Source: a virus. From it: a stretch of DNA of 32,987 nucleotides. The notes under the pieces are model-generated. The model saw only the letters and a list, made by a program, of their open reading frames with translations, was not told where the DNA came from and did no database searches. How positions within the stretch are numbered: position 1 is the first letter of the stretch; the number at the start of each line of letters is the position of its first letter. The translations under genes and the position numbers were made by a program. This document shows positions 5,452 through 32,216 of this stretch, in pieces. The DNA lies in IMG/VR virus record IMGVR_UViG_3300036985_004988, positions 1 through 32,987 of that record, one strand, 5' to 3'.

Positions 5452-8400
5452 TTACTTCTTGCTGAAGTCCATTACTGGCATTGCGTCTGCAACATTGTCG
5501 TCTGCATTCGCGTGCATACCAGTACCCTCACCGGAAGCCCGACCAACCATTGACTCGTCGACTTCCACTTCGGCCAATGCCGCAAGACCTTCAAGTTCAC
5601 CAACGGACTTCGCATTGAGCATCTCGTCCGAGAACTTGTTGCGCTTGCATGCCTTCAGACCCGCGATCAACGCTACCTTACGATCACGGTGCATCTTCAG
5701 ACCAGTACCCAAGATGTCCCTCATTTCACCAGGTGCACTGGCGATGAAGTCTTCGGCGGTCTTCGGTGCTGGCGGATTCTTCAAAGCAGCAAGCTGCTTC
5801 ATGTCTTCCGCTCTTGCCTGAGTCATCTGTTCAACCCGATCAAAGATCGAGTCTTCCATTACCTCAAGCTCCTCGCGATCTGACTCCACTACACCAGCAC
5901 TAAGCCCGATGAGTGAATCGATCCTCTGCTGTCTCTTCATACCTCTCCCTTTCTTTGTTTGTGACTTACCAAAGAACTTTTCCTTGGCAGGACCACTATC
6001 TTCCTCTTCCTCTTCCTCATCCTCGTCTATTTCCTCTTCCACCACATCTTCGTCGTCCATGTCCTCTTCGTCCATGTCCTCTTCGTCCATGGGCATCTTT
6101 TTCTTGTTCACCACTATTTCCACTTCCTCTTCGTCATCAGCAAGGGAAACAGTCTTGGAACCATCCTCCTCCTCATTTACAGTGTAAGACCTACGGAATG
6201 TTCCGTCAGGACTCTTATACACAAAGAATCCCTCCTCAGAGTTAATATGGAGAACTTCTTCCTCATCACCCATTATGGAAATGAGTGCATCACGTTCTTC
6301 CGTATTGATAGAGAGGTAATTGGTTACTGCCATTACTTCTTCCTCATCTCCATCAAGAGTAACATCGTCGTCCTTATCAATGGTGTATCCCTGCTGATAA
6401 GTTTTTCCATTGAGAGAGTAAACGAAAGTTTCGTCGTCGTTAATATCAACGACATGTCCGTATGGGACACTTACTCCAGCAGCTTCCTGGGTAGCAGTCC
6501 TCTTCGGAGAGATAAGATCCTGCAACCTTCTCCGCAACGTCTCAAACGAAAGGTTCACACTGAGACCCATCTTCTGCGCATTAAATACCTTCACTTCTGA
6601 CGCTCCTTCCTCTTCATGATGTTCCTCTGTATTATTCTTTACTCTTGATTGCAGTTTCTTAACTGTATTCTCAATCTTCCTTAAGCGAGTCTCTGCACGA
6701 GATGAACGTCCAAAGTCCCGAAGAAGTTCTTTCTGTGAACCAGTGGTATTCTTAGCTTGCCTCAAAGCACTTCTCTGCATCTTAGGAAGTGCTTGCCTGA
6801 ACATAGATGCCTTTGCTCCCGTATCAGAAATGAGTCTAGCTTCTGACGAAGTAAGAATAGTCTTGGTAGTATATGTTCCACGACCAAAAGAAGACGTAAC
6901 TTTATTCAAGTTACTTTCCATACGTTCGATATGGGAATCTACCCCATAGACAGCACGTTCTGCAGCAGCTGGTCCCGACTTGAATCTAGAATGCAATGCA
7001 TCTATCTTACGGTTCACATCTGCAGTATGTTGTGTTTTATGCACGTAGTCCAAAGAACCAGGAGTAAATAACTTACCACTACCCTTTCCCTTTTCATGAG
7101 GATTACCACTCCCTGGTCGCTTTGATCCTTCACTCTTTCCATCCCCATACTTCATCCGTTTTTCACCCTTAGCCATAGCACGATCATACTTCTTGTCGAA
7201 TGCTCTGTCCTTCTTACTCCTACTACCACCACCACTTGAACCACCACCAATCTGACCAGGACGACCAACATGACCAAAGGCACCGGAACCAGGACCACCG
7301 TGAGTTTTCAACATATCATCCAATCCAGCACGTTCCCATATTATATCTGCCTTACGAGCTAATTGCTCAGCCTTTCTAGCAGAAGGAGACATCTTTTCTG
7401 CTTTTCTACGAAGACGTTCCACTTCGCCACCCATCTTTTCAAACTTAGCCCACTCACTTTTACTCAACTTACCTTTCTTCCACAACTTATCATCCAATTT
7501 GAACTTCTCCTTTGCCAAAGCAGTTGCCTGATCTTTCAGCTCCTGAGCAGCTTCAGGGATACCTTCCTTATCAAGTTCTTTTACCTGATCATACAATGCG
7601 TTAGCTTCTGCCATAGCCTTTTTCTGTTTAGGAGTATAAATCCTCGAACTAGAAGATCTACCACCACCACTACTTGACCCACCTTGGTGACCTGGTATTC
7701 CTTCATGCCCAAAGTTGCCAGATCCACTTCCCCCAGCATCGTGCATCTGTTGGCTGTTCAACCTTGGCATTCCTGCCCCATCACTCCAACTACAGGCACC
7801 CTTCTGCTTAGGTAGCACTGCAAGATGGTCTGGACGGAAGTTGTGTGCAACAGCATTGTACTTTTCTTTCTGCCAGTTGCCAACGAGGAGATCGTCCTCA
7901 GTAAACACTCCAATGGAAACTTCCAGATGCTTACCAGCATTCAATGCAAGCATTACGTCCTTGTCTACTTCGTCTGCCTTGACAGGATCTATCCAGACTT
8001 CTCCCTTGAGCTTGCCACTGTCGAAGTTGCAGTTGAACGTTTTGCCTATTGTCTGTTTCTCCTGTAAGTGTGGCTGACTGGCAGTTACGGGAGCTCCGTC
8101 CTCAGTAGGATGATAAACAACTACCGGACGACCATTCCACGATTCAGGGAACTTACCCAGTTCTTCTGAGGAGTAGTACACATTGTTATGTACTCCTTCT
8201 GTCATGAAAATCGCAGGAGCTACAATATACTTCGTGCCTTCAAGCACTTCCCACCGGATCATGTCGCTCATGAGTGCGCGGAAGGAGCGAATAGCTGGCT
8301 GATCATCGTTCTTCTTCACTTTAGATTCAAGAGTCTTTGCAAATCTCTCCAAACTATCAGCCTTCTCTCTCATAACTTTGGCACTGGCCTTAATGAATCT

Positions 8401-9291
8401 GGGAACTGTTGATTTCCCGGTCTTTCCATACTGATCATAAGCATCTGCTGCTGCTCGATAGGCATCTGCTGCTGCTTGTGCTGCAAAAGGAGTCTTCTCT
8501 TTATACGCTCGTGCAGAAAGTTCAGCCGAAAGTCTTTCCGTAGAATGAGCTCTCTGTATAGAACCAATAGATCCTGTTACTTCTGGAATGTCTTCCCCTT
8601 CCTCAGGATTCTTATGGGAACCACGTTGAGGACCAAACTCTTGGACGTCGTCTCCCCCACGACCATGTTCATCTCCTTCCCCACCACCAATAAACTCGGA
8701 CCTACCACTATCATCATTACCACCACCACTGCCACCCACTTGTCCTTCCCTACCTTTGTGTCCGAAGTTGCCACTACCTGCTCCACCATGGGTAGATATA
8801 GAAGAATTATGCTTCTTACCCTTTCCACCAGTCTCCATCCAGTCTATTCGTTCCTTCAATCCCTTTTCTTTCTCTGGAGTCCAATTACTCACTGATTTGG
8901 GCTTTCCAGCAGCTTTTCTTGCCTTAGTAATCAATTTATCCAAAAGTTGGCCAGCCTTTCCTTCTGTCATATTAGGATTAGCTTTTCTAATCTTACCTAA
9001 AGCTCTCATCCAAGGAGCTATACTTTCATAAGGACCATCAACTTCCAAATCTGCATAGTTGATATTGGTTGGAATTGCAAGTTCTCCACCACCAGACTTT
9101 CCACCACCAGGACCACTACCACCAACATGTCCTGGGATCCCACTGTGTCCACGATTACCTGATCCCGGACCACCATTGTTCTTCAGATCTTCTTCTTCCG
9201 CGATGTGAAAACCAGGAGTCCGATCCTTCTTGGAAATGTCTTCCTTACTCATCACGTGAACGTTCATCTTCTTTTTCCCATGAATGCCCAT
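5452..9291 (-). CDS. Prohead protease (DUF2213-type) and scaffold in one multidomain protein
   Basis: 1279 residues; ATG at 9291 with AGGGAGACGGTC upstream. The recognisable protease core is about residues 345-511: 'YIVAPAIFMTEGVHN', 'SWNGRPVVVYHP', 'GKHLEVSIGVF', 'NFRPDHLAVLPKQKGACSWSDGAGM', as in DUF2213 prohead proteases. Two tandem copies of a small beta unit follow (near 'FVYSLNGKTYQQGYTI' and 'FFVYKSPDGTFRRSYTV'), then a very acidic stretch and a C-terminal scaffold-like part with 'RDRKVALIAGLKACKRNKFSDEML'. Unusually, the core is surrounded by extra segments bounded by four glycine-rich linkers (about residues 40-58, 169-188, 520-538, 665-683). Related proteases are usually several hundred residues shorter. 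The extra helical segments have no recognised function. Confidence 0.8.
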   Translation of the reverse strand: MGIHGKKKMNVHVMSKEDISKKDRTPGFHIAEEEDLKNNGGPGSGNRGHSGIPGHVGGSGPGGGKSGGGELAIPTNINYADLEVDGPYESIAPWMRALGKIRKANPNMTEGKAGQLLDKLITKARKAAGKPKSVSNWTPEKEKGLKERIDWMETGGKGKKHNSSISTHGGAGSGNFGHKGREGQVGGSGGGNDDSGRSEFIGGGEGDEHGRGGDDVQEFGPQRGSHKNPEEGEDIPEVTGSIGSIQRAHSTERLSAELSARAYKEKTPFAAQAAADAYRAAADAYDQYGKTGKSTVPRFIKASAKVMREKADSLERFAKTLESKVKKNDDQPAIRSFRALMSDMIRWEVLEGTKYIVAPAIFMTEGVHNNVYYSSEELGKFPESWNGRPVVVYHPTEDGAPVTASQPHLQEKQTIGKTFNCNFDSGKLKGEVWIDPVKADEVDKDVMLALNAGKHLEVSIGVFTEDDLLVGNWQKEKYNAVAHNFRPDHLAVLPKQKGACSWSDGAGMPRLNSQQMHDAGGSGSGNFGHEGIPGHQGGSSSGGGRSSSSRIYTPKQKKAMAEANALYDQVKELDKEGIPEAAQELKDQATALAKEKFKLDDKLWKKGKLSKSEWAKFEKMGGEVERLRRKAEKMSPSARKAEQLARKADIIWERAGLDDMLKTHGGPGSGAFGHVGRPGQIGGGSSGGGSRSKKDRAFDKKYDRAMAKGEKRMKYGDGKSEGSKRPGSGNPHEKGKGSGKLFTPGSLDYVHKTQHTADVNRKIDALHSRFKSGPAAAERAVYGVDSHIERMESNLNKVTSSFGRGTYTTKTILTSSEARLISDTGAKASMFRQALPKMQRSALRQAKNTTGSQKELLRDFGRSSRAETRLRKIENTVKKLQSRVKNNTEEHHEEEGASEVKVFNAQKMGLSVNLSFETLRRRLQDLISPKRTATQEAAGVSVPYGHVVDINDDETFVYSLNGKTYQQGYTIDKDDDVTLDGDEEEVMAVTNYLSINTEERDALISIMGDEEEVLHINSEEGFFVYKSPDGTFRRSYTVNEEEDGSKTVSLADDEEEVEIVVNKKKMPMDEEDMDEEDMDDEDVVEEEIDEDEEEEEEDSGPAKEKFFGKSQTKKGRGMKRQQRIDSLIGLSAGVVESDREELEVMEDSIFDRVEQMTQARAEDMKQLAALKNPPAPKTAEDFIASAPGEMRDILGTGLKMHRDRKVALIAGLKACKRNKFSDEMLNAKSVGELEGLAALAEVEVDESMVGRASGEGTGMHANADDNVADAMPVMDFSKK
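7243..7299 (-). repeat. Glycine-rich linker motif, protease copy 4
   Basis: Codes for GGPGSGAFGHVGRPGQIGG at residues 665-683 of the protease/scaffold protein. It ends a helical, Lys/Glu-rich segment and begins a Lys/Gly/Ser-rich stretch. Same motif as the other seven copies in this window. Confidence 0.9.
7678..7734 (-). repeat. Glycine-rich linker motif, protease copy 3
   Basis: Codes for GGSGSGNFGHEGIPGHQGG at residues 520-538, directly after the end of the DUF2213 protease core. It is nearly identical in protein to the first copy in the portal gene, including the following SSSGGG tail. Confidence 0.9.
8728..8787 (-). repeat. Glycine-rich linker motif, protease copy 2
   Basis: Codes for GGAGSGNFGHKGREGQVGG at residues 169-187, followed by a Ser/Gly/Asp-rich spacer. 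It separates the first inserted segment from a helical region that leads to the protease core. Confidence 0.9.
9118..9174 (-). repeat. Glycine-rich linker motif, protease copy 1
   Basis: Codes for GGPGSGNRGHSGIPGHVGG at residues 40-58, after a 39-residue N-terminal leader and before a helical segment of roughly 100 residues (74-168). The NR in place of F at position 7-8 also occurs in the second portal copy. Confidence 0.9.
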
Positions 9292-9883: not shown

Positions 9884-12133
9884 TCACTTAAACAAATGCA
9901 AATCCTTATCTGGAACTGTGGTATAAGGACCTTCTTGCCATTCTTTCCAATTCAAACTGTTCTTCTCTGCTATCCTCTTCCATGCCTTATCGTTAGTAGA
10001 GAAATGAACAGCCATCTTACCAGAAAGATTAAGAGTCTTGTCCTTAACAATGGCAGACAATCCCGCAGAGAAGATACCCTTCCTCTGCATAGAACGTGGG
10101 ATGTCACTATCATTGATACGAATAACATTTCCATCCGCATTAGGATAGAGACTTATACTCAAGCCAAGACCAGGACCATCTACAGTCACATTGACTTTAG
10201 TAAGCTTCTCATTCTTAAGCTGAGGATGACCTTCCTTCAGGTATTTGCCAGTACTACGAACTTCAAGTTTTATCTTTGGGTCTACCTTGTGTATGGCCTT
10301 TACCCAAGCTTCTGCAACCTTATCTAACTTGGGAGCTATTCTTCGTGCTTCCTCATCCATCTTTTCAGGAGACATCTCAAAAGCACCTACAAGAATTGGT
10401 TTTCCATTGAACGTACCAACGAAACCATCCTTTGCATACTTACCACCAAAAGAAGAAGTCAGATCAACGGACTTCCCTCCAGTAGAACGTCCACCACCAA
10501 CCTGCCCAGGACGTCCTTTGTGACCAAAGGCACCAGATCCCTTACCACCAAAGACAGACAGACGACTGAACAGTTTCAGCTTACTTCTCTTCTCACCTAC
10601 ATTCGCAGGAATCGCTACGCACCTGCAATTTGGATGTAGTGGTATCCGTCCCTCTATGTCGTCAATGGAAAAGACCTTTCCCTCTAGTGCCTGACACTTA
10701 GTGCATACCTTGTCGTCCCCAGCAGTACTCCACTCAGCTTCTACTTCTACTCCCTCTATTTGGGCTGCTCGATACATCCCCATAGAAGCCATATGATGGG
10801 CTCGAATGATCTCCGTGCGTGCGATAGTGCGTGCGCGAGAGCGTCCTATGTCTGTGTCTTCACTGAGAGACCTTGCCATTTCCAAAGGACTAAGTCCCTT
10901 AGCCATTCCCTCTGCAAGAGTGTGGGCAATTCTGTTAGACAAGAACTGCGTAATTCCTTTCAAGTCGTCGTACGTGCGCATGTGCAGGAGAGCAACCCTG
11001 TCCACATGAAAAGGCATATTGAAAGCACTGTCGATGAAACGAGGAGCAAAGTCTGGCTTAGGAAACTTAATACCCTTCTTGTTGAGCTCTGTCTCCCCTC
11101 TCTGCATACCCTTCTTGTAGGCAGAGTCAATGTATACGTCTGTCCATCCAGTGGCAGTCCCTTGTAGTTGGGGACCTTTGACAATCTTCAGAACCTTGTC
11201 GTCTACTTCATCGTTTAGCCAGCGAATAAAGCGACGGATACCTGTTGCAGAGTTGTCGTAAGCAAACTCATACTTGTTCAGAGGAATGCTTGCGTGAACC
11301 TGAAGACCATCTTCTCTCCAAGGAATCTTTTCCACAGACCAACGAGGATCTTGCTCACTAACTTCAGTGAGCTTCTTCATCTTTACGCCTTGGGCAATTG
11401 CAAACTGCCTACTCTCTGCCTTGGACAACTGCACTCCGTAGTAAGCTTTGAACAGTCCAGCACCCTGACCTTCAAGAATCTTCCCATCCTTAACTGCCCA
11501 ACTATGCTGTCCCCAAAATGGAGACTGAGAAGTACTAAGAGCATACCCAGTAACTATAGCGTCTGCCTTGCCAGATCTAAACTGCAGAGAAGCATTGGTA
11601 TGACATTCATTAGGTATACCCTTGTAGTTAACAATACCTTTCGTGCTAAACTTCTGTCCTCTCTTAGCTATCAAGTCCAGATCACTGTCACTGTCCAGTC
11701 TTTGGTCAATATAAGCAGGACGAATACTTCTCATTGCCTTCTTAACAGACTTACGATCTTCACGACTGGGCTTGGGACCCTCTCCTGTAAAACGTTCCTC
11801 AAGAGGGATACCCTTCTCACTTCCTTCTACACTTGATCCTCCTCCTACCTGTCCTGGCCTTCCCTTATGACCAAAGGCACCTGAACCAGGACCACCAAAT
11901 GTCTTCAACTCTTCTTTTCCAAGACCCATCACATCCAGATCTACAATCGCATGTCGTATCGCTGCCTTAACTAGAGCAAAGCGTCTGTCCAGATCTCTGG
12001 TGAATCCTGTACGTATCGCTCCCGTGCGGGAGGGATCGTAGCGCAAGACTCTCTTAGCAAGAAGATGCAGATGGGAACCATTTCCACAACTACACTCGTG
12101 CTGTTCTAGCAGTGCTGGAGAGGCGTAAGACAT
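9884..12133 (-). CDS. MuF-type head morphogenesis protein with extra domains
   Basis: 749 residues; ATG at 12133 touches the stop of the previous gene (TAAATG). The head part is split: residues 30-75 ('YDPSRTGAIRTGFTRDLDRRFALVK') are the MuF/SPP1 gp7 N-terminus, and about 290-510 hold the core, including 'ARTIARTEIIRAHHMASMGMYR', CxxC at 477/480 and HPNCRC at 500-505. Between them, after a glycine-rich linker (80-99), lies an inserted domain with Cys177 ('NECHTNASL') and His210 ('GQHSWAVKDG'), resembling Cys/His hydrolase folds. After a second linker (529-548) comes a C-terminal domain of about 200 residues of unknown function. MuF proteins ride in the capsid near the portal, and MuF fusions can carry effectors. 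Confidence 0.82.
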   Translation of the reverse strand: MSYASPALLEQHECSCGNGSHLHLLAKRVLRYDPSRTGAIRTGFTRDLDRRFALVKAAIRHAIVDLDVMGLGKEELKTFGGPGSGAFGHKGRPGQVGGGSSVEGSEKGIPLEERFTGEGPKPSREDRKSVKKAMRSIRPAYIDQRLDSDSDLDLIAKRGQKFSTKGIVNYKGIPNECHTNASLQFRSGKADAIVTGYALSTSQSPFWGQHSWAVKDGKILEGQGAGLFKAYYGVQLSKAESRQFAIAQGVKMKKLTEVSEQDPRWSVEKIPWREDGLQVHASIPLNKYEFAYDNSATGIRRFIRWLNDEVDDKVLKIVKGPQLQGTATGWTDVYIDSAYKKGMQRGETELNKKGIKFPKPDFAPRFIDSAFNMPFHVDRVALLHMRTYDDLKGITQFLSNRIAHTLAEGMAKGLSPLEMARSLSEDTDIGRSRARTIARTEIIRAHHMASMGMYRAAQIEGVEVEAEWSTAGDDKVCTKCQALEGKVFSIDDIEGRIPLHPNCRCVAIPANVGEKRSKLKLFSRLSVFGGKGSGAFGHKGRPGQVGGGRSTGGKSVDLTSSFGGKYAKDGFVGTFNGKPILVGAFEMSPEKMDEEARRIAPKLDKVAEAWVKAIHKVDPKIKLEVRSTGKYLKEGHPQLKNEKLTKVNVTVDGPGLGLSISLYPNADGNVIRINDSDIPRSMQRKGIFSAGLSAIVKDKTLNLSGKMAVHFSTNDKAWKRIAEKNSLNWKEWQEGPYTTVPDKDLHLFK
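10490..10549 (-). repeat. Glycine-rich linker motif, MuF copy 2
   Basis: Codes for GGKGSGAFGHKGRPGQVGGG at residues 529-548, at the exact boundary between the MuF core and the unknown C-terminal domain. It differs at only one residue from MuF copy 1. Confidence 0.92.
11837..11896 (-). repeat. Glycine-rich linker motif, MuF copy 1
   Basis: Codes for GGPGSGAFGHKGRPGQVGGG at residues 80-99, between the MuF N-terminal helices and the inserted Cys/His domain. Confidence 0.92.
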
Positions 12134-12355
12134 TTATACCTGCAACTTATGGGCAGCTTCTACTTCATTGCTCGATGCAAAATCCAATGGGTCAAAGCCA
12201 AGAATAGCAATGACATCAGGAGGAGTAACAGGGAGCAAAGCATCTTCTGTGTCCTCTTCGTTGAGCAGTGCTTGGTCTTGTCTCCAGTCTGGCCAAGACT
12301 GATTGTCCGGACCAAAGTGAACATCTACTGGTAGTCCTGTAATTGCTTTGATCAT
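12134..12355 (-). CDS. Small acidic protein between portal and MuF genes
   Basis: A 73-residue frame. The start is ATG at 12355 (MIKAITGLPVDVHFG), which overlaps the portal stop (ATGA) and has GGAGGAAGG upstream; the five extra residues of the longer frame are not needed. The protein is acidic, with 'SWPDWRQDQALLNEEDTEDALLPVTPPDVIAILGFDPLDFA' and no membrane segment. It ends exactly at the MuF start. A small gene in this position is common in head operons but I do not recognise the family. Confidence 0.75.
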   Translation of the reverse strand: MIKAITGLPVDVHFGPDNQSWPDWRQDQALLNEEDTEDALLPVTPPDVIAILGFDPLDFASSNEVEAAHKLQV

Positions 12356-15324
12356 TTTACCTTCCTCCAAGCCAAGAACACATGTGGATCAATGTAGCTC
12401 TGTAAAGCGACAGTCGGTGTATTTCCAAGGTGTTGGCTTACGACGGTCGCAACTGCCTTCACAGACTTCTTATAGGACGCTCTGTTCTTAGGAGGATCCA
12501 TACGGTTTATTGTATCTACGGCCAAAGATGTTCCTCTGGCAGTGCGCATGTCCTTTGGCTTAAAGCCACCACCATCCAGTCCTCTCGTGTATACACGCAA
12601 GGTCTTCTCTGTAACAGTTGGGAAGAGGAGTCCTTTCGGACCTGCTGCCTTGGCTCTTGCCAGAACATCTTTACCTACTGCTTTGTCTGTTATTGAAAAA
12701 GTCTTGATCTCTCCATGAGACTTCCCAGGAACGAAACGTAGAGCGACTGCACCAGGACGACCTATCACATGACGTCCTTGCAAAGTAGTAGCACCAAACG
12801 ATTCGTGTTCAGCCTTCATGTCTCTCTGGTTACCAGGACGAATAGCTGTCTCACTGATTAACCGAAGGCAAGAAGCGTTCTCTCTCTTGGTCTTGTCACC
12901 ACTCTTTATGTCTTTGGAAATCTCTGCCGTAACAGCATCTAGCTTTGTTCGGAGCTCTTCTGTTCTGCCGAACTTAGTAGCAGAATTCTTTGTTCGTGCA
13001 TTGATACTCAGTATTGGCTGACGACGACCTTTCTCATCTCTTCCAGTAACCATCAAGTCTGCCTTAGGATCCGTAGATACTTCCACGTCTGTCCACGCAG
13101 GAGGAATAGGTCTTCCTGTTGCCTTCATCACATACTTGGGTATTGGCCTTCCATTAGCCATAACCAACTCAGTGATTTCTTTCCCGTCCTTGTCCTTCTT
13201 GCCTGTAGGGACTCTCTTGGTTGCTCCCATAGGTGCCGAACCACCAACTTCTCCCTGACGTCCTGCGTGATCTCTGTTACCTGATCCAGCACCACCATTA
13301 ATATGCAATGCATTTACCAGGAGAACTTCGGAAGTAAGATCTCTAACACGTTTCGCTCCCTTAATCATGCGAAGCTGATCCTTGGGAACAATATGCTTCT
13401 TTCCTGTCCTGTCCGTCATCTCCCACGAAGTGCTGTTCTCATGTCCTCCAGTAAGGATACCACCAATCACTGTCTTGCCACTAATGGTAATTACAGCATC
13501 ACCAAAAGAGATCTTCTTACTCAATGGCAGAGAACCCTTCTCGAACGTCTTACGCAGATGGGAAGCAATAGGCTCTACCTTATCTCCCTTAAGAGGCATT
13601 CCCTCTGGCTTAATTTCCATTCCACTACCACCACCACTGCTTGATCCACCTTGGTGACCTGGGATACCTTCATGACCAAAGTTACCTGATCCCTCTCCTC
13701 CGGCTATCTTAAATGCTCTCTTAGGAGGATTAGTGGATGGAGAAGACCCTCTGGTCGGAGGAGTAGGTGGTCTACCCTTTCCACCACCAGTTGGCGTTGT
13801 GTCAGGCTGTCCCTGCCCAGAAGCATCTTCCCCATCCTGATCGTCTGCCTGTTGGGCAGCAGCAACTTGAGCATCTTCTTCTATCTGGGCTTGCTCTTCT
13901 TCCATCTTCTTCATTGCTTCGTCAATGATCTCTTGCGCTTCTTCCTCATCCATATCAAGGAAGCGAGTAAGGAAGAACATCGGAGGTATCAGGGCATCCA
14001 GACCACCACTGATATATGCAGCAATCATGTCAACCTTGGACTTCTTAATGTCCTGCTGTTCCTTCTCCGTAAGCATCTGAGCATCAGGCCAATCCACCAT
14101 GAACTTATTGTTCTTGGGTGTGGGTAGAATTCCAAGATCAATCAGTCTCTGGACAAAGGGACGAAGAATGATTGGTTCTGCAAAGTCTGTTCGCCGTTCT
14201 GCTACTCGATTGTTCCAGTTCTCCTGATCTGTAGTAGAAGCAAGTTCTCCTCTCTCTGAACCAGTAAGTATTCTCTGGGGAATGCCAGTAGCAGCACTGA
14301 TCATCTGAATCTGGACAGTCACGTTTGGTGTAGGATCTGCAACAGGAGAAGAAAGGTTTCTTGCCGTAACTCCCTGCAAGCGCATATAACGGTTGATACC
14401 ATGGATGTACTTCTTTATCTCAGTATCCATGGCAGTCTTACCAGCAGCATCTAGCTCCTGGGAGTCTGCATCCATTTCAAAGGAAAAGCCAGGATAGCCT
14501 CCTCTCCAGAACATCTCCGCACTACCAGCTATCAGCTTCTCCAGATCGTCCAAACGATTGTATACAGCTTCCAAACGAGGAATACCGTAGACGTCACTAA
14601 TAAGACAATCTTCCGCAACATGGATTACTCGGGAGTGGTGAACTACGTATGTCTGTGAGGGAGCAACTCCTACTGAAGTCCGAGCCTCTCCTATTGAAGA
14701 CTGCCCCATGTCGTAAGTTATCTGGTAAGTAAGAGGAAGTCCATATCGGGGAGACTTAACGTTCTGATCCCAAGTGAGTATTACTGCATGGTCTTCTGGG
14801 TATGGTTGCGAGAACAGCAATTTGCTGGCCTTGGTAGCTGGAATCTCCAGTTTAGATACTTGGGAGGACGAACCTGAACTTTTCTTGTTAGGAGCGTCAT
14901 CAACGCCAAGCAATAGTATCGAGTACCGTCCAAGGCCAGCAAGCTTGTCAGCACGATTAAGGTAAGAGAAGACGCGAACCTTTTCCAAGAGAGCCTTCCA
15001 TGCCTTCTCGAAAACAGATTCCTTTGCTTCCTCTGTGTCGTATACCTCTGGCTCCATTCGCCACGTGGCATCAGGATAAGCATTAACTATTCGCTTGGCA
15101 ATGTCTTGCCGTTGATACTTAGCCTCAAAGTGTTCGTATTGAAGAGTCTTCTGATATCCTACTACTTCGTAGATATCCCTATCCCCACCAAAAGTCTGTC
15201 CTAGGAAAGATCCCAACTTGGATCTGGACAGCAACTCGTTGGACATAGTAGACAATTTCTGGTTAGCTGCCCGCAAGGACATCAATGCTCCAGCGTTAGT
15301 TTCAGGAAATCTTGTGCGTCTCAC
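12352..15324 (-). CDS. Portal protein fused to a type IB topoisomerase domain
   Basis: 990 residues with a GTG start at 15324 and TAGGAG 7 bases upstream, over the terL stop. Residues about 45-470 are a DUF1073-type portal ('YQRQDIAKRIVNAYPDATWR', 'GLGRYSILLLGVDD', 'VVHHSRVIHV', 'ATGIPQRILTGSERGELAST'). After a Gln/Asp/Pro linker comes glycine-rich motif 1 (542-561), a domain of about 110 residues, motif 2 (677-696), and then about 290 residues matching type IB topoisomerases: 'SETAIRPGNQ' (Arg829), 'FVPGKSHGE' (Lys868), 'KDMRTARGTSLA' (Arg927), 'LGNTPTVALQSYIDP' (Asn967, Tyr977). The Asn in place of the classic His is normal in bacterial enzymes. The portal makes the DNA channel; the topoisomerase part could relax or nick packaged or incoming DNA. 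Confidence 0.85.
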   Translation of the reverse strand: MRRTRFPETNAGALMSLRAANQKLSTMSNELLSRSKLGSFLGQTFGGDRDIYEVVGYQKTLQYEHFEAKYQRQDIAKRIVNAYPDATWRMEPEVYDTEEAKESVFEKAWKALLEKVRVFSYLNRADKLAGLGRYSILLLGVDDAPNKKSSGSSSQVSKLEIPATKASKLLFSQPYPEDHAVILTWDQNVKSPRYGLPLTYQITYDMGQSSIGEARTSVGVAPSQTYVVHHSRVIHVAEDCLISDVYGIPRLEAVYNRLDDLEKLIAGSAEMFWRGGYPGFSFEMDADSQELDAAGKTAMDTEIKKYIHGINRYMRLQGVTARNLSSPVADPTPNVTVQIQMISAATGIPQRILTGSERGELASTTDQENWNNRVAERRTDFAEPIILRPFVQRLIDLGILPTPKNNKFMVDWPDAQMLTEKEQQDIKKSKVDMIAAYISGGLDALIPPMFFLTRFLDMDEEEAQEIIDEAMKKMEEEQAQIEEDAQVAAAQQADDQDGEDASGQGQPDTTPTGGGKGRPPTPPTRGSSPSTNPPKRAFKIAGGEGSGNFGHEGIPGHQGGSSSGGGSGMEIKPEGMPLKGDKVEPIASHLRKTFEKGSLPLSKKISFGDAVITISGKTVIGGILTGGHENSTSWEMTDRTGKKHIVPKDQLRMIKGAKRVRDLTSEVLLVNALHINGGAGSGNRDHAGRQGEVGGSAPMGATKRVPTGKKDKDGKEITELVMANGRPIPKYVMKATGRPIPPAWTDVEVSTDPKADLMVTGRDEKGRRQPILSINARTKNSATKFGRTEELRTKLDAVTAEISKDIKSGDKTKRENASCLRLISETAIRPGNQRDMKAEHESFGATTLQGRHVIGRPGAVALRFVPGKSHGEIKTFSITDKAVGKDVLARAKAAGPKGLLFPTVTEKTLRVYTRGLDGGGFKPKDMRTARGTSLAVDTINRMDPPKNRASYKKSVKAVATVVSQHLGNTPTVALQSYIDPHVFLAWRKVK
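13237..13296 (-). repeat. Glycine-rich linker motif, portal copy 2
   Basis: Codes for GGAGSGNRDHAGRQGEVGGS at residues 677-696, directly before the topoisomerase IB domain. It is the most divergent of the eight copies, with D for G before the His. Confidence 0.88.
13642..13701 (-). repeat. Glycine-rich linker motif, portal copy 1
   Basis: Codes for GGEGSGNFGHEGIPGHQGGS at residues 542-561, after the portal core and its Pro/Thr linker. A SSGGGSG tail follows, as in protease copy 3. Confidence 0.92.
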
Positions 15325-26561: not shown

Positions 26562-26844
26562 AACACGTTTTCCAAAACGTAAGTACAACCATGTTCATGT
26601 GGTCAAGCACATGACAGACCTGTTGAATCTAGCTGCAGAGTTGAAATCAATGCAGGTAGATATGGATACCCTGATTCGTGATCTCCACAACTATGGACGA
26701 TGGAGCTCCGAAGCAATCAAAAGAACATTCAAAGAAGCTGGACATCTGTCTATCTGGCAGAACAATGAGTTCGTAGAAACAAAAGTTCAGTTCACTGGGA
26801 AAGAGCCACTACCCACAATCAAAAAGAAGTTCCACCATGCTTGA
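26542..26844 (+). CDS. Hypothetical helical protein before primase
   Basis: 100 residues, ATG at 26542 behind AAAAAAGGAGACCAAA. A basic front is followed by 'LLNLAAELKSMQVDMDTLIRDLHNYGRWSSEAIKRTFKEAG', probably helical, and a short strand end. It overlaps the primase start by 8 bases. No family is recognised. Confidence 0.7.
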   Translation: MLKPLRRTRFPKRKYNHVHVVKHMTDLLNLAAELKSMQVDMDTLIRDLHNYGRWSSEAIKRTFKEAGHLSIWQNNEFVETKVQFTGKEPLPTIKKKFHHA

Positions 26845-27733
26845 TATAATATCACTGTATAGAGATCATCACATACCACATGCAACTTCTGGTCACAAAC
26901 ACTGCAGACCAGGTTGGGTGCAAACTCCTTGCCCATTCTGTATAGGCAATGAAGGGTTTCATCTTGGGTACAATACCAGCAAGGGATATTTCCATTGTTG
27001 GCGTTGTGGAGCTCACTCCATTGAAGAAGCCATTCCAAAGATTCTTCACATATCTTACTATCAGCTAAAGGGTCTTTTACGACCTTACAAGACTCACTTT
27101 ATTGCAGTAGAAGATGTCCCTGTAACAAAGCAAGCCAAGGTGTGTAAGCTTCCTGCAGGATGTTTACCCTTGGAAAAGCCACACAAGAACTATCTCAAGA
27201 AACGCAAGTTCGATCCAGATGTTGTTGCCTCTACTTGGGACTTATATGGCACTGGCTGGCTGGGTGAATACAAGTTTCGTATCATTGCTCCCATCTATTT
27301 CCAACATGAATTGGTCAGCTACCAAGGTAGAGACTATACTGGTCATTCCAAAGATCGCTACAAGACTTGTGCCAAATACAACGAAGTGATATTTCACAAG
27401 CACGTGCTATATGGAATAGACAAAGTTCCTGGTGAACGGATTGTCATCTGTGAAGGAATCACAGACGTATGGCGCCTCGGGGCAGGAGCTGTTTGTACTT
27501 TCGGTATCCAATTCAAAATGAGACAAGTTAAGTTGATGAAGATATTCAAGGAACGTTTCATTCTGTTCGATACTGCCGATGCCCAAGCCAGAGAACAAGC
27601 GGACAAGTTAGCCAGACTACTTGCAGTCTATCCTGGGGAGACAACAGTACTGGAACTCCCCTACAAAGATCCTGGTGAAATGCCCCAAAAGAAGGCAGAC
27701 CGTCTCATGGAAAAGGAACTCCAAATCCGTTAA
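26837..27733 (+). CDS. DnaG-like DNA primase
   Basis: 298 residues, ATG at 26837, overlapping the previous gene. A zinc ribbon (Cys32, Cys35, Cys54, Cys57: 'CPFCIGNEGFHLGY' and 'YFHCWRCG') is followed by a middle segment and a Toprim domain: 'RIVICEGITDVWRLGAG' (Glu206) and 'FILFDTADAQ' (Asp245, Asp248). It makes RNA primers at forks. It is about half as long as bacterial DnaG because the helicase-binding C-terminal part is missing, as in many phage primases. Confidence 0.82.
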   Translation: MLDIISLYRDHHIPHATSGHKHCRPGWVQTPCPFCIGNEGFHLGYNTSKGYFHCWRCGAHSIEEAIPKILHISYYQLKGLLRPYKTHFIAVEDVPVTKQAKVCKLPAGCLPLEKPHKNYLKKRKFDPDVVASTWDLYGTGWLGEYKFRIIAPIYFQHELVSYQGRDYTGHSKDRYKTCAKYNEVIFHKHVLYGIDKVPGERIVICEGITDVWRLGAGAVCTFGIQFKMRQVKLMKIFKERFILFDTADAQAREQADKLARLLAVYPGETTVLELPYKDPGEMPQKKADRLMEKELQIR

Positions 27734-27750
27734 CCAACGTAGAACTTAAT

Positions 27751-27834
27751 GGGTGCGTGGTGTAGCTGAATGAACCTGCCGTCCGTCAGGTTATCGTGCT
27801 CCGTTCTGTCTACACCACCACCCTTCTTTTTCTT
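27751..27834 (+). terminator. Long stem structure with T-rich tail
   Basis: GGGTG-c-GTGGTGTAG (27751-27765) pairs with CTACACCAC-CACCC (27810-27823): 14 pairs with one bulge. The loop holds a second hairpin AACCTG/CAGGTT (27773-27792, loop CCGTCCGT). TTCTTTTTCTT follows. It separates the primase from the organiser gene and looks like a factor-independent terminator or a small stable RNA. It lacks the arms of a tRNA. Confidence 0.6.
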
Positions 27835-27845
27835 GGGAGAGTGAT

Positions 27846-28790
27846 ATGAAATTGATTCCTACAAATGATAGTTCCTTTGCTGTTTCTCGTGACCTTTTTG
27901 GAAAAGTTATCAGGCTGAATAAGCCTAAGAATTATATCCTACTTTTGGTCGTTGAAAACTTCTTCTTTGGGAACATGCCACACCCATCTTTTAACAAGCT
28001 CTCTACCATACTTAATTGGCCTATCAAAAAAGTGAAAGATATCCATCATAAATTGGTCCTCTTGCTTCCCGGAAATAAAAGTGCCCCTCCCCCCTCGTAC
28101 TCCCCCCTCCCCTCCAAACCATATATTTCAGAGTTAATAAATACTAAATATTCTTTCGTGCGCGCATGCGCGAGGGATTCCAAATCTGAGGATTACTTGC
28201 ACCTATTCCCGGAGGACTTCCAAAAGAACAAAAATTTCTGTAGTGTTTGGGAGCAGTGGTTGGCTTGGCGTTCAGAGTCCAAAAAGCCAGTGAAGAAAAC
28301 CACAGCCAAGATTCATGCTAACATTCTCAAGGAATTAGAAGTTGAGGATGCGATAGAGACCATTAACCAAAGTCTGAACTGTGGATGGAGAGGATTATTT
28401 CCAAGGAAGAAGGGAAAGAAGAGAAGAGAGAAGTTGTCCACCAAAGATGAGAAGATAGTTCTCAGGGTGAAAAAGATTCTTGTCCGTGGAGTGGAAGAGT
28501 TCCACGGAAAGATCTCGGACATGGACAGAACTCATTTGGAAAACGTTGCCTTGGACATCCGAGAGTATTACCTGAAACTCCCCAAGAAGATCAAGAGTTT
28601 TCTGGACAGAGGATCTTACTCCCTAGCCAGAGAATACGTGAACTTCATTTCGGACAAGTATGCCAGTTGGGAAGAGTTTACTCCACAGAAGGTTGGTAAT
28701 CCAGAGTCCAAGATGTGGGGAAATTTTATTTCCTACATGGAGAAAGAAGTTGTTGGATGCAGTTTCCAGTCGGGACATTCGCTGGAGTAG
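27846..28790 (+). CDS. Replisome organiser-like initiation protein
   Basis: 314 residues, ATG at 27846 behind GGGAGAGTGAT. The front ('PKNYILLLVVENFFFGNMPHPSFNKLSTILNWPIKKVKDIHHKL') is a winged-helix-like DNA-binding part. A Pro/Ser linker of about 20 residues is followed by 'FCSVWEQWLAWRSESKKPVKKTTAKIHANILKEL...AIETINQSLNCGWRGLFP', a block found in phage initiation proteins that load the replicative helicase. The last third is charged and helical. Such proteins bind the origin in the linker-coding DNA in lambda-like phages; the DNA coding this linker is unusual here (see the origin entry). Confidence 0.65.
   Translation: MKLIPTNDSSFAVSRDLFGKVIRLNKPKNYILLLVVENFFFGNMPHPSFNKLSTILNWPIKKVKDIHHKLVLLLPGNKSAPPPSYSPLPSKPYISELINTKYSFVRACARDSKSEDYLHLFPEDFQKNKNFCSVWEQWLAWRSESKKPVKKTTAKIHANILKELEVEDAIETINQSLNCGWRGLFPRKKGKKRREKLSTKDEKIVLRVKKILVRGVEEFHGKISDMDRTHLENVALDIREYYLKLPKKIKSFLDRGSYSLAREYVNFISDKYASWEEFTPQKVGNPESKMWGNFISYMEKEVVGCSFQSGHSLE
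28084..28172 (+). other. Candidate replication origin inside the organiser gene
   Basis: Three elements in a row: a perfect homopyrimidine mirror repeat (CCCCTCCCCCCTC, 28084-28096, and its exact reverse, 28100-28112, around GTA); an AT-rich stretch (28116-28157); and the palindrome CGCGCATGCGCG (28161-28172). The other strand of the mirror repeat has four G-runs of 4, 6, 6 and 4, a strong G-quadruplex motif. It codes for the Pro/Ser linker of the initiation protein. The layout fits a lambda-like origin within the initiator gene, but no repeated binding sites are obvious. Confidence 0.45.
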
Positions 28791-28924
28791 TACAGACTCG
28801 TGTAAATCCGTATAGGCTGCCAAGGACAGTCTCTGAAGCACTCTCAGACGTTCGTAACGTGTTTATGGACAGGGTTAGGGTTTCGGTCATATGGGAACCC
28901 ACACCGTATGGTGGGAGCTCGTAA
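28757..28924 (+). CDS. Small hypothetical protein between organiser and helicase
   Basis: A possible 55-residue frame from ATG 28757, overlapping the end of the organiser gene and filling the gap before the helicase. It contains 'TRVNPYRLPRTVSEALSDVRNVFMDRVRVSVIWEP', which reads like a real beta-alpha protein, but the ribosome binding site is weak (GGAG about 15 bases upstream). Confidence 0.35.
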   Translation: MQFPVGTFAGVVQTRVNPYRLPRTVSEALSDVRNVFMDRVRVSVIWEPTPYGGSS

Positions 28925-28951
28925 GAGTTCAATAGAATGGAAAGGAACGCC

Positions 28952-30526
28952 ATGGTTACCAAAAGAAAAGTGGATGTGAGCATTGAAAAAGAAATTCTGA
29001 TAGGAATGATAGTTAACAGCAAGTTCATAAAAGGACTATTACCAATATACAAGTCCGAATACTTCTCCGCTCCCTTTGCTCGAACTGTTGCAGATTGGTG
29101 TATTGGGTATGCAAAGAAATACGACAAGGCACCAAAGAAGTCCATACAAAGTCTTTTCCATGTTCATTCTGCCAAGGATGAGGATGAGGACAAGGTAGAA
29201 CTTATCCATGATTTTCTGTCTACACTGTCGGAGGAGTTTGTCAAAGCCAAGAAGATGAACGTTGCTTATCTACTTGACAGAGCGGAAGCTTACTTCAAGA
29301 AAAGAAGTTTGGAAATACTGTCCAAGAATTTGCTGGGTACTTTGGTGGAGGAAGGCTCTGAAGAAGCTGAGAAGTTAGTTAGGGAGTATAAGCAAGTTGC
29401 CCGACCCACTTCTTCGGGTATCAATCCATTTAATAATCCTGATGCACTTCGAGAAGCGTTTGAAGAAGAAGGTCAGCGACTGATTTCCTTTCCTGATGCT
29501 TTAGGAGAATTGCTGAATGATGAATTGGTCAGGGAAGGCTTCGTAGGAATGATGGCTGCTGAAAAGAAGGGGAAGACTTGGCTAGCTGTAGAGTGTGCTA
29601 CAAGAGCTATGCGTTCACGATGCAACGTTGCCTTCTTTGAAACAGGAGATATGAGTGAACGAAGGTTAGTCCGCCGATTCGCTATGCGTATCACAAGAAA
29701 ACCTACCATGCAGAAATACTGTGGTACGGTATATATTCCTGTTCTGGATTGTCAACACAATCAAGATGGCTCTTGCAAACATCCAAGACGTTCAGGCAAA
29801 GGATCAGTTCCTCCCATAGATGAAGAAGGGGATGAACCTATCACTCCGGAACTCCTGATGTCCGGTGCCTCCAAGAATTACTTGCCTTGCTGTCGTTGCA
29901 TGAAGAGGGACAAGAAAGTTTACAGAGGAGCAGTGTGGTACAAGAAAAAGCGAATAGATGAACCACTGACATGGAGGGAGAGTTTTCAGATTGGCAATAA
30001 GTTCATGAAACAAGCCAGAGGAAAAGATTTCAAACTTATTATCAAGCCTACAAATACATATAGTGTCAACGACATCAGGAATCAGCTAGATACTTGGGAA
30101 CAGTCCGAAGGATTTATTCCTGACGTGATTATCATTGACTATGCGGATATCTTAGGACCGATGGACAAGAAAAAGGATTACCGTCAGCAACAGAATGAGA
30201 CTTGGTCTGCAATGCGTGCTTTAAGTTTGGAAAAGCATGCACTGGTTCTGACGTTCACTCAAGCAAACCAAAAGTCTTATAAGGCAAGAAGTCTTCAGTT
30301 GGGTCATGTGGGTGAAGACAAAAGGAAATACGCTCATGTAACGTTGATGGGTTCTATTAACCAAGTACCAAAAGAAAAGCGATTAGGTATATGGAGATTT
30401 GGAGTGCTGGTTATGAGAGAGGATTTCTTTACTGTAGATTCTGAAGTTTGTGTTCTTCAGAATTTAAGTATAGGATCTCCGTATCTGGGTTCTTATTGGT
30501 CTTACCAAAGAAAGGAGGAATCTTAA
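28952..30526 (+). CDS. DnaB-like replicative helicase
   Basis: 524 residues from ATG 28952, behind GAAAGGAACGCC; five more residues to 28937 lack a good site. The N-terminal part is helical. The RecA-like core has 'GMMAAEKKGKTWLAVE' (Walker A, Lys208), 'NVAFFETGDMSERRLVRRFA' (the DnaB H1a region) and 'PDVIIIDYADIL' (Walker B). A stretch rich in Cys lies in the middle (Cys267, 275, 313, 314, 316), which suggests a zinc-binding insertion between Walker A and B, absent from bacterial DnaB. It unwinds the fork 5'-3' and would be loaded by the organiser. Confidence 0.82.
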   Translation: MVTKRKVDVSIEKEILIGMIVNSKFIKGLLPIYKSEYFSAPFARTVADWCIGYAKKYDKAPKKSIQSLFHVHSAKDEDEDKVELIHDFLSTLSEEFVKAKKMNVAYLLDRAEAYFKKRSLEILSKNLLGTLVEEGSEEAEKLVREYKQVARPTSSGINPFNNPDALREAFEEEGQRLISFPDALGELLNDELVREGFVGMMAAEKKGKTWLAVECATRAMRSRCNVAFFETGDMSERRLVRRFAMRITRKPTMQKYCGTVYIPVLDCQHNQDGSCKHPRRSGKGSVPPIDEEGDEPITPELLMSGASKNYLPCCRCMKRDKKVYRGAVWYKKKRIDEPLTWRESFQIGNKFMKQARGKDFKLIIKPTNTYSVNDIRNQLDTWEQSEGFIPDVIIIDYADILGPMDKKKDYRQQQNETWSAMRALSLEKHALVLTFTQANQKSYKARSLQLGHVGEDKRKYAHVTLMGSINQVPKEKRLGIWRFGVLVMREDFFTVDSEVCVLQNLSIGSPYLGSYWSYQRKEES

Positions 30527-30598
30527 ATCGGGCGAATACCGTAGAACATATTGTTGGGTTTAGTGTAGGTAAAACAAAGTAACAAGGAGGAAGTGGTC

Positions 30599-31729
30599 AT
30601 GGGAAGTAAGAAGTCAAAGGTTGAAGTGGATGAGAAGGATCTGAAAGCTGCTGCGAAGGATATCAATGCGGTATTAGGTCCCGATCCCAAGATCGATCTG
30701 AAGCAGGGAGCCAAGGGTTTGGAAAAAGAAATCCGAACCATGGCTGAAGAGATCAAGTCGGACGATAAGTTGTCGAAGGAGACTTTCAAACTCCTGAAGG
30801 ATCTCGGATGCGCTCCTGAGGAAGATACGGGTACGGATGATGAGGATGAAGACGAAGAGGATGAGGATGAAGTAGAGGAAAAGAAGTCTTCCAAGCAAAA
30901 GAAGTCCAAGGATGAGGATGAGGACGAAGATGCTGATGAGGAAGACGAAGACGAAGAGGAAGAGGAAGAAGATGAGGATGAGGACGAGGAGAAGTCTTCC
31001 AAGAAGAAAAAGTCCAAAGATGAGGACGATGAAGAGGATGAGGAAGAGGAAGATGTAGACGAGGACGATGAGGATGAGGATGAGGAAGAAGAGAAGCCTT
31101 CCAAGAAGTCCAAGAAGTCCAAGTCTGATGATGAGGATGAGGAAGAGGACTCGGATGAGGATTCCGAAGAGGAAGACGAGGACGAAGAGGAAGATGCAGA
31201 TGAGGACGAGGATGAGGAAGAGGACGAGAAACCTTCAAAGAAATCCAAGAAGTCCAAAGATGCAGATGAGGACGAAGAGGAAGAGGAAGAAGAGGACGAA
31301 GAGGAATCAGACGAAGATGAGGACGAGGACGAAGAGGATGATAAAAAGTCCAAGAAGTCCAAGAAGTCTGATGAGGAAGACGAGGACGAAGAGGAAGAGG
31401 AAGAAGAGGACGAAGAGGACAAGGGTGAGGACAACAAAAAGGAGGGTAAAGTGAAGAAGGGAAAGAAAGAGAAGAAAGAGAAGAAGGAAAAGGGTGGTAA
31501 GGAGAAGTCCTGCTTTGGTCATAGGGCAAGCGGGATGGGTGGAATGATCGATGGTCTTGTCAAGGAAGGAACTACCCTGAAGAGTGCTGTTAAGGCATTG
31601 GGCAAAGCATTCAAGGGTAAGTCTGCGGAAACCCTGGCAAGCAAATTCGAGAAGCATGTCAAGCATCTCGAAGCTGACTGTGATGTGAAGGTCAAGATCT
31701 CTGACTCGGGAGTCTACAAGGCCAAGTAA
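30599..31729 (+). CDS. Very acidic protein with lysine islands and a shared C-terminal domain
   Basis: 376 residues from ATG 30599, behind AAGGAGG at 8 bases; a GTG at 30593 is too close to that site. Three parts: an N-terminal helical domain (1-75); about 200 residues that alternate between Asp/Glu runs and short islands such as KPSKKSKKSK; and a C-terminal domain (306-376) that matches the C-terminal domain of the protein at 20263-20652. The middle looks like a disordered charge-patterned region that could mimic DNA, bind basic proteins or phase-separate. It is the last gene before the tmRNA. No family is known to me. Confidence 0.8.
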   Translation: MGSKKSKVEVDEKDLKAAAKDINAVLGPDPKIDLKQGAKGLEKEIRTMAEEIKSDDKLSKETFKLLKDLGCAPEEDTGTDDEDEDEEDEDEVEEKKSSKQKKSKDEDEDEDADEEDEDEEEEEEDEDEDEEKSSKKKKSKDEDDEEDEEEEDVDEDDEDEDEEEEKPSKKSKKSKSDDEDEEEDSDEDSEEEDEDEEEDADEDEDEEEDEKPSKKSKKSKDADEDEEEEEEEDEEESDEDEDEDEEDDKKSKKSKKSDEEDEDEEEEEEEDEEDKGEDNKKEGKVKKGKKEKKEKKEKGGKEKSCFGHRASGMGGMIDGLVKEGTTLKSAVKALGKAFKGKSAETLASKFEKHVKHLEADCDVKVKISDSGVYKAK

Positions 31730-31861: not shown

Positions 31862-32216
31862 GGGGATGTCGGGTATCGACTGGTTAGTAGTAATTATATT
31901 GGCATGCGGTGGTTGATCGGTGGCCACCTTAAACTCCGATCAAAAGCGAACTGACGAAGTCCGCGAACTCTTGGCTGCTTAATTGCACCAATAGGAACCC
32001 GGAGAGGTATGGTTAGTATCCGGTAGTACGACTCTTACCAACTAGATCCCGGTAGTCGCTCCGGTTATAGTGCGACTTGCATAGTGGTTGCAAACTAAAC
32101 ATCCACTTGGTGGAGGGTACACTTAGTACCCCTAGTTGCTGGACTTAAACCAGACAAGCATGTAGAAGATATAATGGCTCTTTCACAGGACGGGAGTTCA
32201 ACTCTCCCCATCTCCA
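31862..32216 (+). ncRNA. ssrA: Transfer-messenger RNA (tmRNA)
   Basis: 355 bases (E. coli: 363). The 5' GGGGATG pairs with 3' CATCTCC as the acceptor stem (31862-31868 with 32209-32215). The T arm is GGGAG-TTCAACT-CTCCC (32192-32208). The 5' domain has GGTATCGAC and GGCATGCGG as expected, PK1 uses GATCGG/CCGATC (31915-31920 with 31936-31941), and the 3' part holds AAGCATGTAG and GGACGGGAGTTCAACTC. The tag frame runs in the phase ...GAC GAA GTC CGC GAA CTC TTG GCT GCT TAA (31953-31982), ending in ELLAA, with resume codon near 31950-31953. CCA is not encoded (ACA follows the acceptor). tmRNA frees stalled ribosomes and tags the unfinished protein for proteolysis; no smpB was seen. Confidence 0.9.

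Follow-up and report, generated by a model that had tools for sequence, protein, structure and literature searches.

The DNA at positions 28084-28172 of the window (the whole stretch analysed, a viral record that is linear and 32,987 bases long) is probably a phage replication origin, placed in the linker-coding part of the phage's own initiator gene in a manner resembling lambda O and SPP1 gene 38; this judgement is drawn from comparison of sequences. Its C-rich part is better read as a pair of initiator-binding repeats than as a triplex or quadruplex. The site represents a candidate origin for a broad group of uncultivated phages (361 confirmed primase relatives in one viral scan), and it provides a small, clean test case for origin G-run repeats acting as protein sites as opposed to acting by DNA structure. 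The relevant features are the following.

26837-27733, plus strand: primase gene, upstream of the initiator gene (phrog_47, E 4.2e-36)
27846-28790, plus strand: O-like replication initiator gene, 314 aa (phrog_678, HMM relatives, AlphaFold)
28074-28178, plus strand: linker, residues 77-111, pLDDT below 50 (AlphaFold)
28084-28112, unstranded: C-rich mirror repeat with 13-base arms and centre GTA; quadruplex motif on the minus strand
28087-28096, unstranded: direct repeat CTCCCCCCTC, proposed iteron 1, with a C6 run
28100-28109, unstranded: direct repeat CTCCCCCCTC, proposed iteron 2, 13 bp from iteron 1, with a C6 run
28121-28156, unstranded: AT-rich stretch, proposed unwinding element, least stable 35-bp step of the window
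28157-28172, unstranded: alternating pyrimidine-purine tract of 16 nt, holding the palindrome
28161-28172, unstranded: 12-bp palindrome CGCGCATGCGCG, inside the 16-nt alternating tract
28937-30526, plus strand: DnaB-like helicase gene, downstream of the initiator gene (phrog_19, E 4.3e-32; Pfam DnaB_C, 3.1e-7)

The initiator gene consists of an N-terminal helical part, the linker and a C-terminal O-like part, with helices at residues 15-73 and 94-303 of an AlphaFold model whose pTM is modest (0.36). The profile phrog_678 ("replication initiation O-like") matches residues 134-199 (E 2.6e-7) and covers no more of the protein, for which reason the initiator as a whole is not classed as an O protein; by analogy, it may nevertheless be O-like in its way of working. 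The N-terminal helical part, for which no family match was obtained among Pfam and PHROG profiles, is probably DNA-binding. Foldseek searches with the model returned nothing significant from the PDB (best E 1.5) and weak HTH and replication proteins from BFVD (best E 2.9e-3). HMM relatives of the initiator sit, as it does, between primase and helicase genes. Residues 77-111 form one long low-confidence inner stretch of the model and enclose all of the DNA elements; the coincidence of such a linker with the elements in an O-like gene bears out the positional parallel with lambda O drawn by the sequence-only reading.

Just downstream of the initiator gene, at 28800-28816 (plus strand), lies GTGTAAATNCGTNTAGG, which is present also at L066:4514-4530, downstream of a small gene preceding the helicase gene, and in no other locus compared (L-numbers denote loci of relatives on viral contigs; the L066 contig is also L189). 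Farther downstream, the window encodes a highly acidic, low-complexity D/E/K/S repeat protein of 378 aa (30593-31729, plus strand) without a Pfam match, and a complete tmRNA gene in the phage (31862-32219, plus strand; Rfam RF00023, 88.1 bits, model positions 1-374). The tag APVIVRLA proposed by ARAGORN for this tmRNA looks wrong; on inspection of the sequence by eye, the true tag seems to be given by a frame near 31947-31982 that ends in RTDEVRELLAA-stop. On the minus strand (5452-9291, 9884-12133 and 12352-15324), the glycine-rich peptide GG.GSGNFGH.G.PG..GGS recurs many times, both within and between structural genes.

Along the initiator gene the repeats come first, followed by the AT-rich stretch and then the palindrome. 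The mirror repeat described earlier, with 13-base arms and a 3-base centre, is exact (arms at 28084-28096 and 28100-28112), and the two 10-bp CTCCCCCCTC direct repeats together make up both this mirror and the quadruplex motif. G-runs suited to a quadruplex had been claimed for the complement, and there a regular expression indeed found a G3+N1-7 motif, the only one in the window; likewise, the two C6 runs of the mirror are the only G/C runs of at least six. The AT-rich stretch said to follow the mirror ranks first among all 35-step stretches of the window (-34.6 versus -38.4 for the runner-up), and the palindrome said to come next was confirmed. That the rest of the gene is ordinary holds roughly, usage over 14 codons having z < -2 only in segments starting at 28056-28098 and 28161-28182. 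GC skew, which is close to zero between 26.5 and 28.5 kb, is uninformative, as the signal mainly follows the direction of the genes. As for an intragenic origin, then, the site lies inside the initiator gene and beside primase and helicase genes, with the two CTCCCCCCTC repeats as candidate initiator sites and, adjoining them, an AT-rich candidate unwinding element.

Judged against Markov sequences of window length, some of these elements are not rare in themselves: a quadruplex motif is present in 17% of such sequences, and the window contains 8 palindromes of 12 bp where 7.4 are expected. Homopurine mirror arms of at least 13 occurred in 0 of 300. For the contribution of codon usage, the protein was kept fixed and the gene resampled synonymously (20000 draws, early-gene or all-gene usage); a quadruplex motif anywhere in the initiator gene then arose in 52 draws with early-gene and 38 with all-gene usage, a mirror of at least 10 in the linker in 0 and 1, and a 12-bp palindrome in the linker in 18 and 52, respectively. 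The AT-rich stretch is less stable than codon expectation (p 0.005), and direct repeats of the window initiator exceed what codon usage gives (p 0.015). The DNA elements in the linker are unexplained by codon choice.

Relatives were obtained by means of the primase. Single-sequence searches of viral contigs with the initiator or the helicase yielded none; the window primase as query gave 54 viral loci, and with aligned primases as query 361 relatives were confirmed in one viral scan, of which the best 80 were taken. Genome contigs contributed 11 primase relatives, all in metagenome-assembled genomes of several phyla. The initiators of these relatives were picked by iterated HMM searches between primase and helicase: 38 of the first 54 loci were given an initiator, 34 of them non-redundant (L007 and L013 having been added by position and a BLAST match), while a held-out set of 62 distinct new loci supplied 22 with an HMM initiator for testing, L070 not being among the 22. 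L058 and L066 have no full-length initiator in the primase-helicase interval. With 10-24% identity to the window initiator, the initiators of the relatives are so diverged that base-by-base comparison of DNA patterns is impossible, and the protein sequence of the linker is not conserved among them. Each gene was tested against its own protein and local codon usage for its least stable 35-bp step and for local direct repeats; primase, helicase and SNF2 genes from these loci served as controls.

A melting stretch (p<0.05) was found in 14/34 initiators of the first set versus 0/34 primase, 0/32 helicase and 0/30 SNF2 genes, and in 9/22 held-out initiators versus 2/22, 0/17 and 0/19, respectively; it is not significant in 20/34 and 13/22 initiators. 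Direct repeats reached the same threshold in 13/34 initiators (2/34 primase, 4/32 helicase and 5/30 SNF2 genes) and, in the held-out set, in 11/22 (1/22, 1/17 and 4/19), a signal less clean than that of melting because the SNF2 genes show a mild excess of direct repeats too (Fisher 0.02 in the first and 0.006 in the held-out set). The least stable step of the whole locus falls inside the initiator in 15/34 cases (3.4 expected) and in 5/22 held-out ones (2.0 expected, p 0.04). In 15/34 cases of the first set, the 100 bp that precede the melting stretch hold more direct repeats than is usual for the locus (p<0.05); within the held-out set, repeats are more numerous upstream than downstream in 12/22, fewer in 4 and equal in 6. 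The window has this order too, its repeats preceding the melting stretch. G/C runs of at least four are enriched near the melting stretch 1.15-fold and 1.5-fold in the first and held-out sets, those of at least five 1.9-fold (p 0.05) and 4.2-fold (p 1.5e-5); for the latter, primase controls gave 1.6-fold (p 0.07), and helicase and SNF2 controls were below 1. This pairing of repeats and melting stretch in the initiator genes of relatives supports a putative origin there. Together with the phrog_678 match, the modelled linker and the least stable stretch of the window, it sustains the proposal, made at first sight of the DNA, that the initiator gene harbours an origin in its linker. An inverted repeat following the melting stretch was considered as a rule for the family and dropped, as it reached p<0.05 in 7/34 (Fisher 0.27).

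Nature has provided swaps of initiator halves. L046 and L050 share 92.7% DNA identity over the first 558 bases of the L046 gene, including repeats and melting stretch, with no DNA match beyond; L048 matches L050 (87%) in the C-terminal part only, and its repeats differ. Conversely, L093 and L096 are 87.7% identical over the remainder of the gene, starting just past the melting stretch, and no DNA match is found between their N-terminal parts, repeats or melting stretches. From these two recombined sets it follows that the repeats go with the N-terminal half, which is what would be expected if that half reads them. The O proteins of lambdoid phages show the same co-segregation of repeats with the N-terminal half. 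Given this link between the repeats and the half presumed to bind DNA, sequence alone may suffice for reading the repeat code of many initiators.

How far the G-rich character of the repeats extends can be followed in several relatives. L070, the best match to the window initiator (E 2e-20 over the C-terminal part), carries AGGGGGGATTTAGGGGGGA in its linker, a little ahead of the gene's least stable step; the two G6 runs therein are the only G6/C6 runs in the 12.5 kb of this locus, and they do not provide the four separate G3 tracts that a canonical quadruplex needs. The linker of L019 has CCCCCCCTC and CCCCCCTC. Close pairs of G6/C6 runs are present in 6/107 non-redundant loci, each time (6/6) within the primase-helicase interval, which makes up 17.8% of bases (p 3e-5, a value to be read knowing that the criterion came from three of the six, namely the window, L070 and L019; the other three, L015, L093 and L096, give 3/3). 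The quadruplex motif, searched with the same regular expression, is present in the initiator gene of 4/58 phages, of which the window and L040 alone have it at the linker; a homopurine mirror containing GC is confined to the window among these 58. Neither quadruplex nor mirror is therefore supported as a rule for the family. A quadruplex-forming G-tract kept in relatives, as would be expected of a CSB 2-like origin, was not found, similar G-rich elements being present only in L066 and L185. With canonical motifs so rare among relatives, a triplex or quadruplex is not established as the working part of the origin; the comparisons are better accounted for by protein binding than by either of these structures.

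Some further tracts were seen in the course of these comparisons. A GC-rich alternating purine-pyrimidine tract lies beside the least stable stretch of L058 (L058:8941-9038), and similar ones are located in the primase-helicase interval at L002:7234, L124:8820 and L125:8995; the tract at 28157-28172 of the window may be of the same kind. The exact window element CCCCCCTCGTACTCCCCCC has one match in viral contigs, L235, which shows no match to the replication proteins. A family of viral contigs (L149, L150, L155, L156, L163, L166, L173, L183, L184, L187 and L188) has GGGGGGGAGTCTGAGGGGGGG in common, as part of a longer G-rich tract; by the proteins tested, this contig family is unrelated to the window.

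It is conceivable, but unlikely, that the G-rich strand acts by its structure (quadruplex, triplex, or a transcript-linked R-loop as at CSB 2) and that protein binding is secondary. The window, L066 and L185 have in common G-runs around a central AGTNNGA, compatible with a quadruplex; the longer G-rich element of L066 and L185, near to the window form, is located between primase and helicase, outside any recognised initiator gene, and adjoins low-stability DNA. A pattern built from the window and L066, by which L185 was found, retrieved 44 stretches from the viral collection, two of them with primase and helicase relatives (one being L066's own contig), and both of these loci carry the element between those two genes. 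However, that pattern misfits the window at its last base, and a corrected, wider one brought no new primase or helicase relative among at least 120 stretches; L070 keeps its G6 pair without a canonical quadruplex, the motif has the low frequency in initiator genes given above, and sigma-70-like promoters, the only type searched, are not in excess at 27600-29100 (two versus 2.1 expected). We give an equally small chance to the narrower proposal that a conserved GGGG-AGTNNGA-GGGG structure opens or primes the origin in some of these phages, namely the window, L066, L185 and perhaps L040. Were this the case, a quadruplex or R-loop switch, inside or outside the initiator gene, would be a parallel of mitochondrial CSB 2 in a bacterial virus.

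The repeats might also be an operator by which the initiator controls itself, the origin being elsewhere, for example in the intergenic regions 27734-27845 or 28791-28936. Iterons of plasmids often serve as both operator and origin sites, and the former region, between the primase and initiator genes, encodes a strong RNA hairpin (plus strand, -38.6 kcal/mol, z -3.4, 0/200 shuffles as good), for which BLAST gave no match among the loci of relatives. Yet an operator leaves unexplained why the window has its least stable step right beside the repeats and why repeats and melting stretch are paired in relatives, which renders this explanation quite improbable. Hardly to be credited is the idea that the DNA has no function and that a proline-rich, structure-free linker is coded, by chance, with C-rich and AT-rich codons; linkers do tolerate odd composition, and the lack of conservation of this one is in keeping with it, but synonymous resampling, in the window and in both sets of relatives, argues against it, as do the similar G-rich elements outside initiator genes in L066 and L185.

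For the preferred reading, an origin with initiator-binding repeats, the following course can be proposed. The N-terminal domain of the initiator would bind the two C6/G6 direct repeats at 28087-28109; binding on supercoiled DNA would strain and melt the adjoining AT-rich stretch; the C-terminal part would bring the DnaB-like helicase to the bubble, and the phage primase would start synthesis. Protein-DNA contacts, melting, delivery of the helicase and any role of the palindrome are what we infer from the arrangement. Searches of the open-licence literature, judged by titles and the opening of abstracts, brought up nothing on this phage group or on G6 iterons in a phage origin.

Among known systems, mitochondrial CSB 2 has a tract of G-run, A and G-run beside a replication start (PMC5027508, in the part used here); the window likewise has a G-run tract on its candidate origin, but CSB 2 works by a transcript primer and without an initiator protein, unlike what is proposed here. 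For P1 oriL, the portion of PMC9948254 drawn upon reports that an AT-rich part of repL is needed in cis, as shown by synonymous changes; the likeness is one of layout, an AT-rich part of an initiator gene, and the gene context is unrelated. In SPP1, oriL in gene 38 (replisome organizer) has direct repeats and an AT-rich unwinding element (excerpt of PMC6316719): intragenic direct repeats, AT-rich element and a phage DnaB-type helicase are shared, whereas SPP1 possesses another origin besides and, in gp39, a separate loader, of which no counterpart was identified in the window. Ori-lambda lies midway along gene O and has iterons followed by roughly 40 bp of AT-rich DNA (PMC5043065 and PMC7466680, in the sections available); the elements of the window are also in the middle of the initiator gene, with repeats preceding the AT-rich stretch. 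Lambda has four iterons, 19-bp inverted repeats, as compared to a pair of 10-bp direct repeats, built on a C6 core, in the window, and its P protein brings the host helicase, whereas in the window phage the initiator gene is flanked by phage genes for a primase and a DnaB-like helicase. That the candidate origin has two repeats only was counted against it; two are not too few, though, since two lambda iterons with the AT-rich region suffice for unwinding and are the minimal unit for it (same part of PMC7466680). What sets this candidate origin apart as a variant is the G6/C6 core of its repeats.
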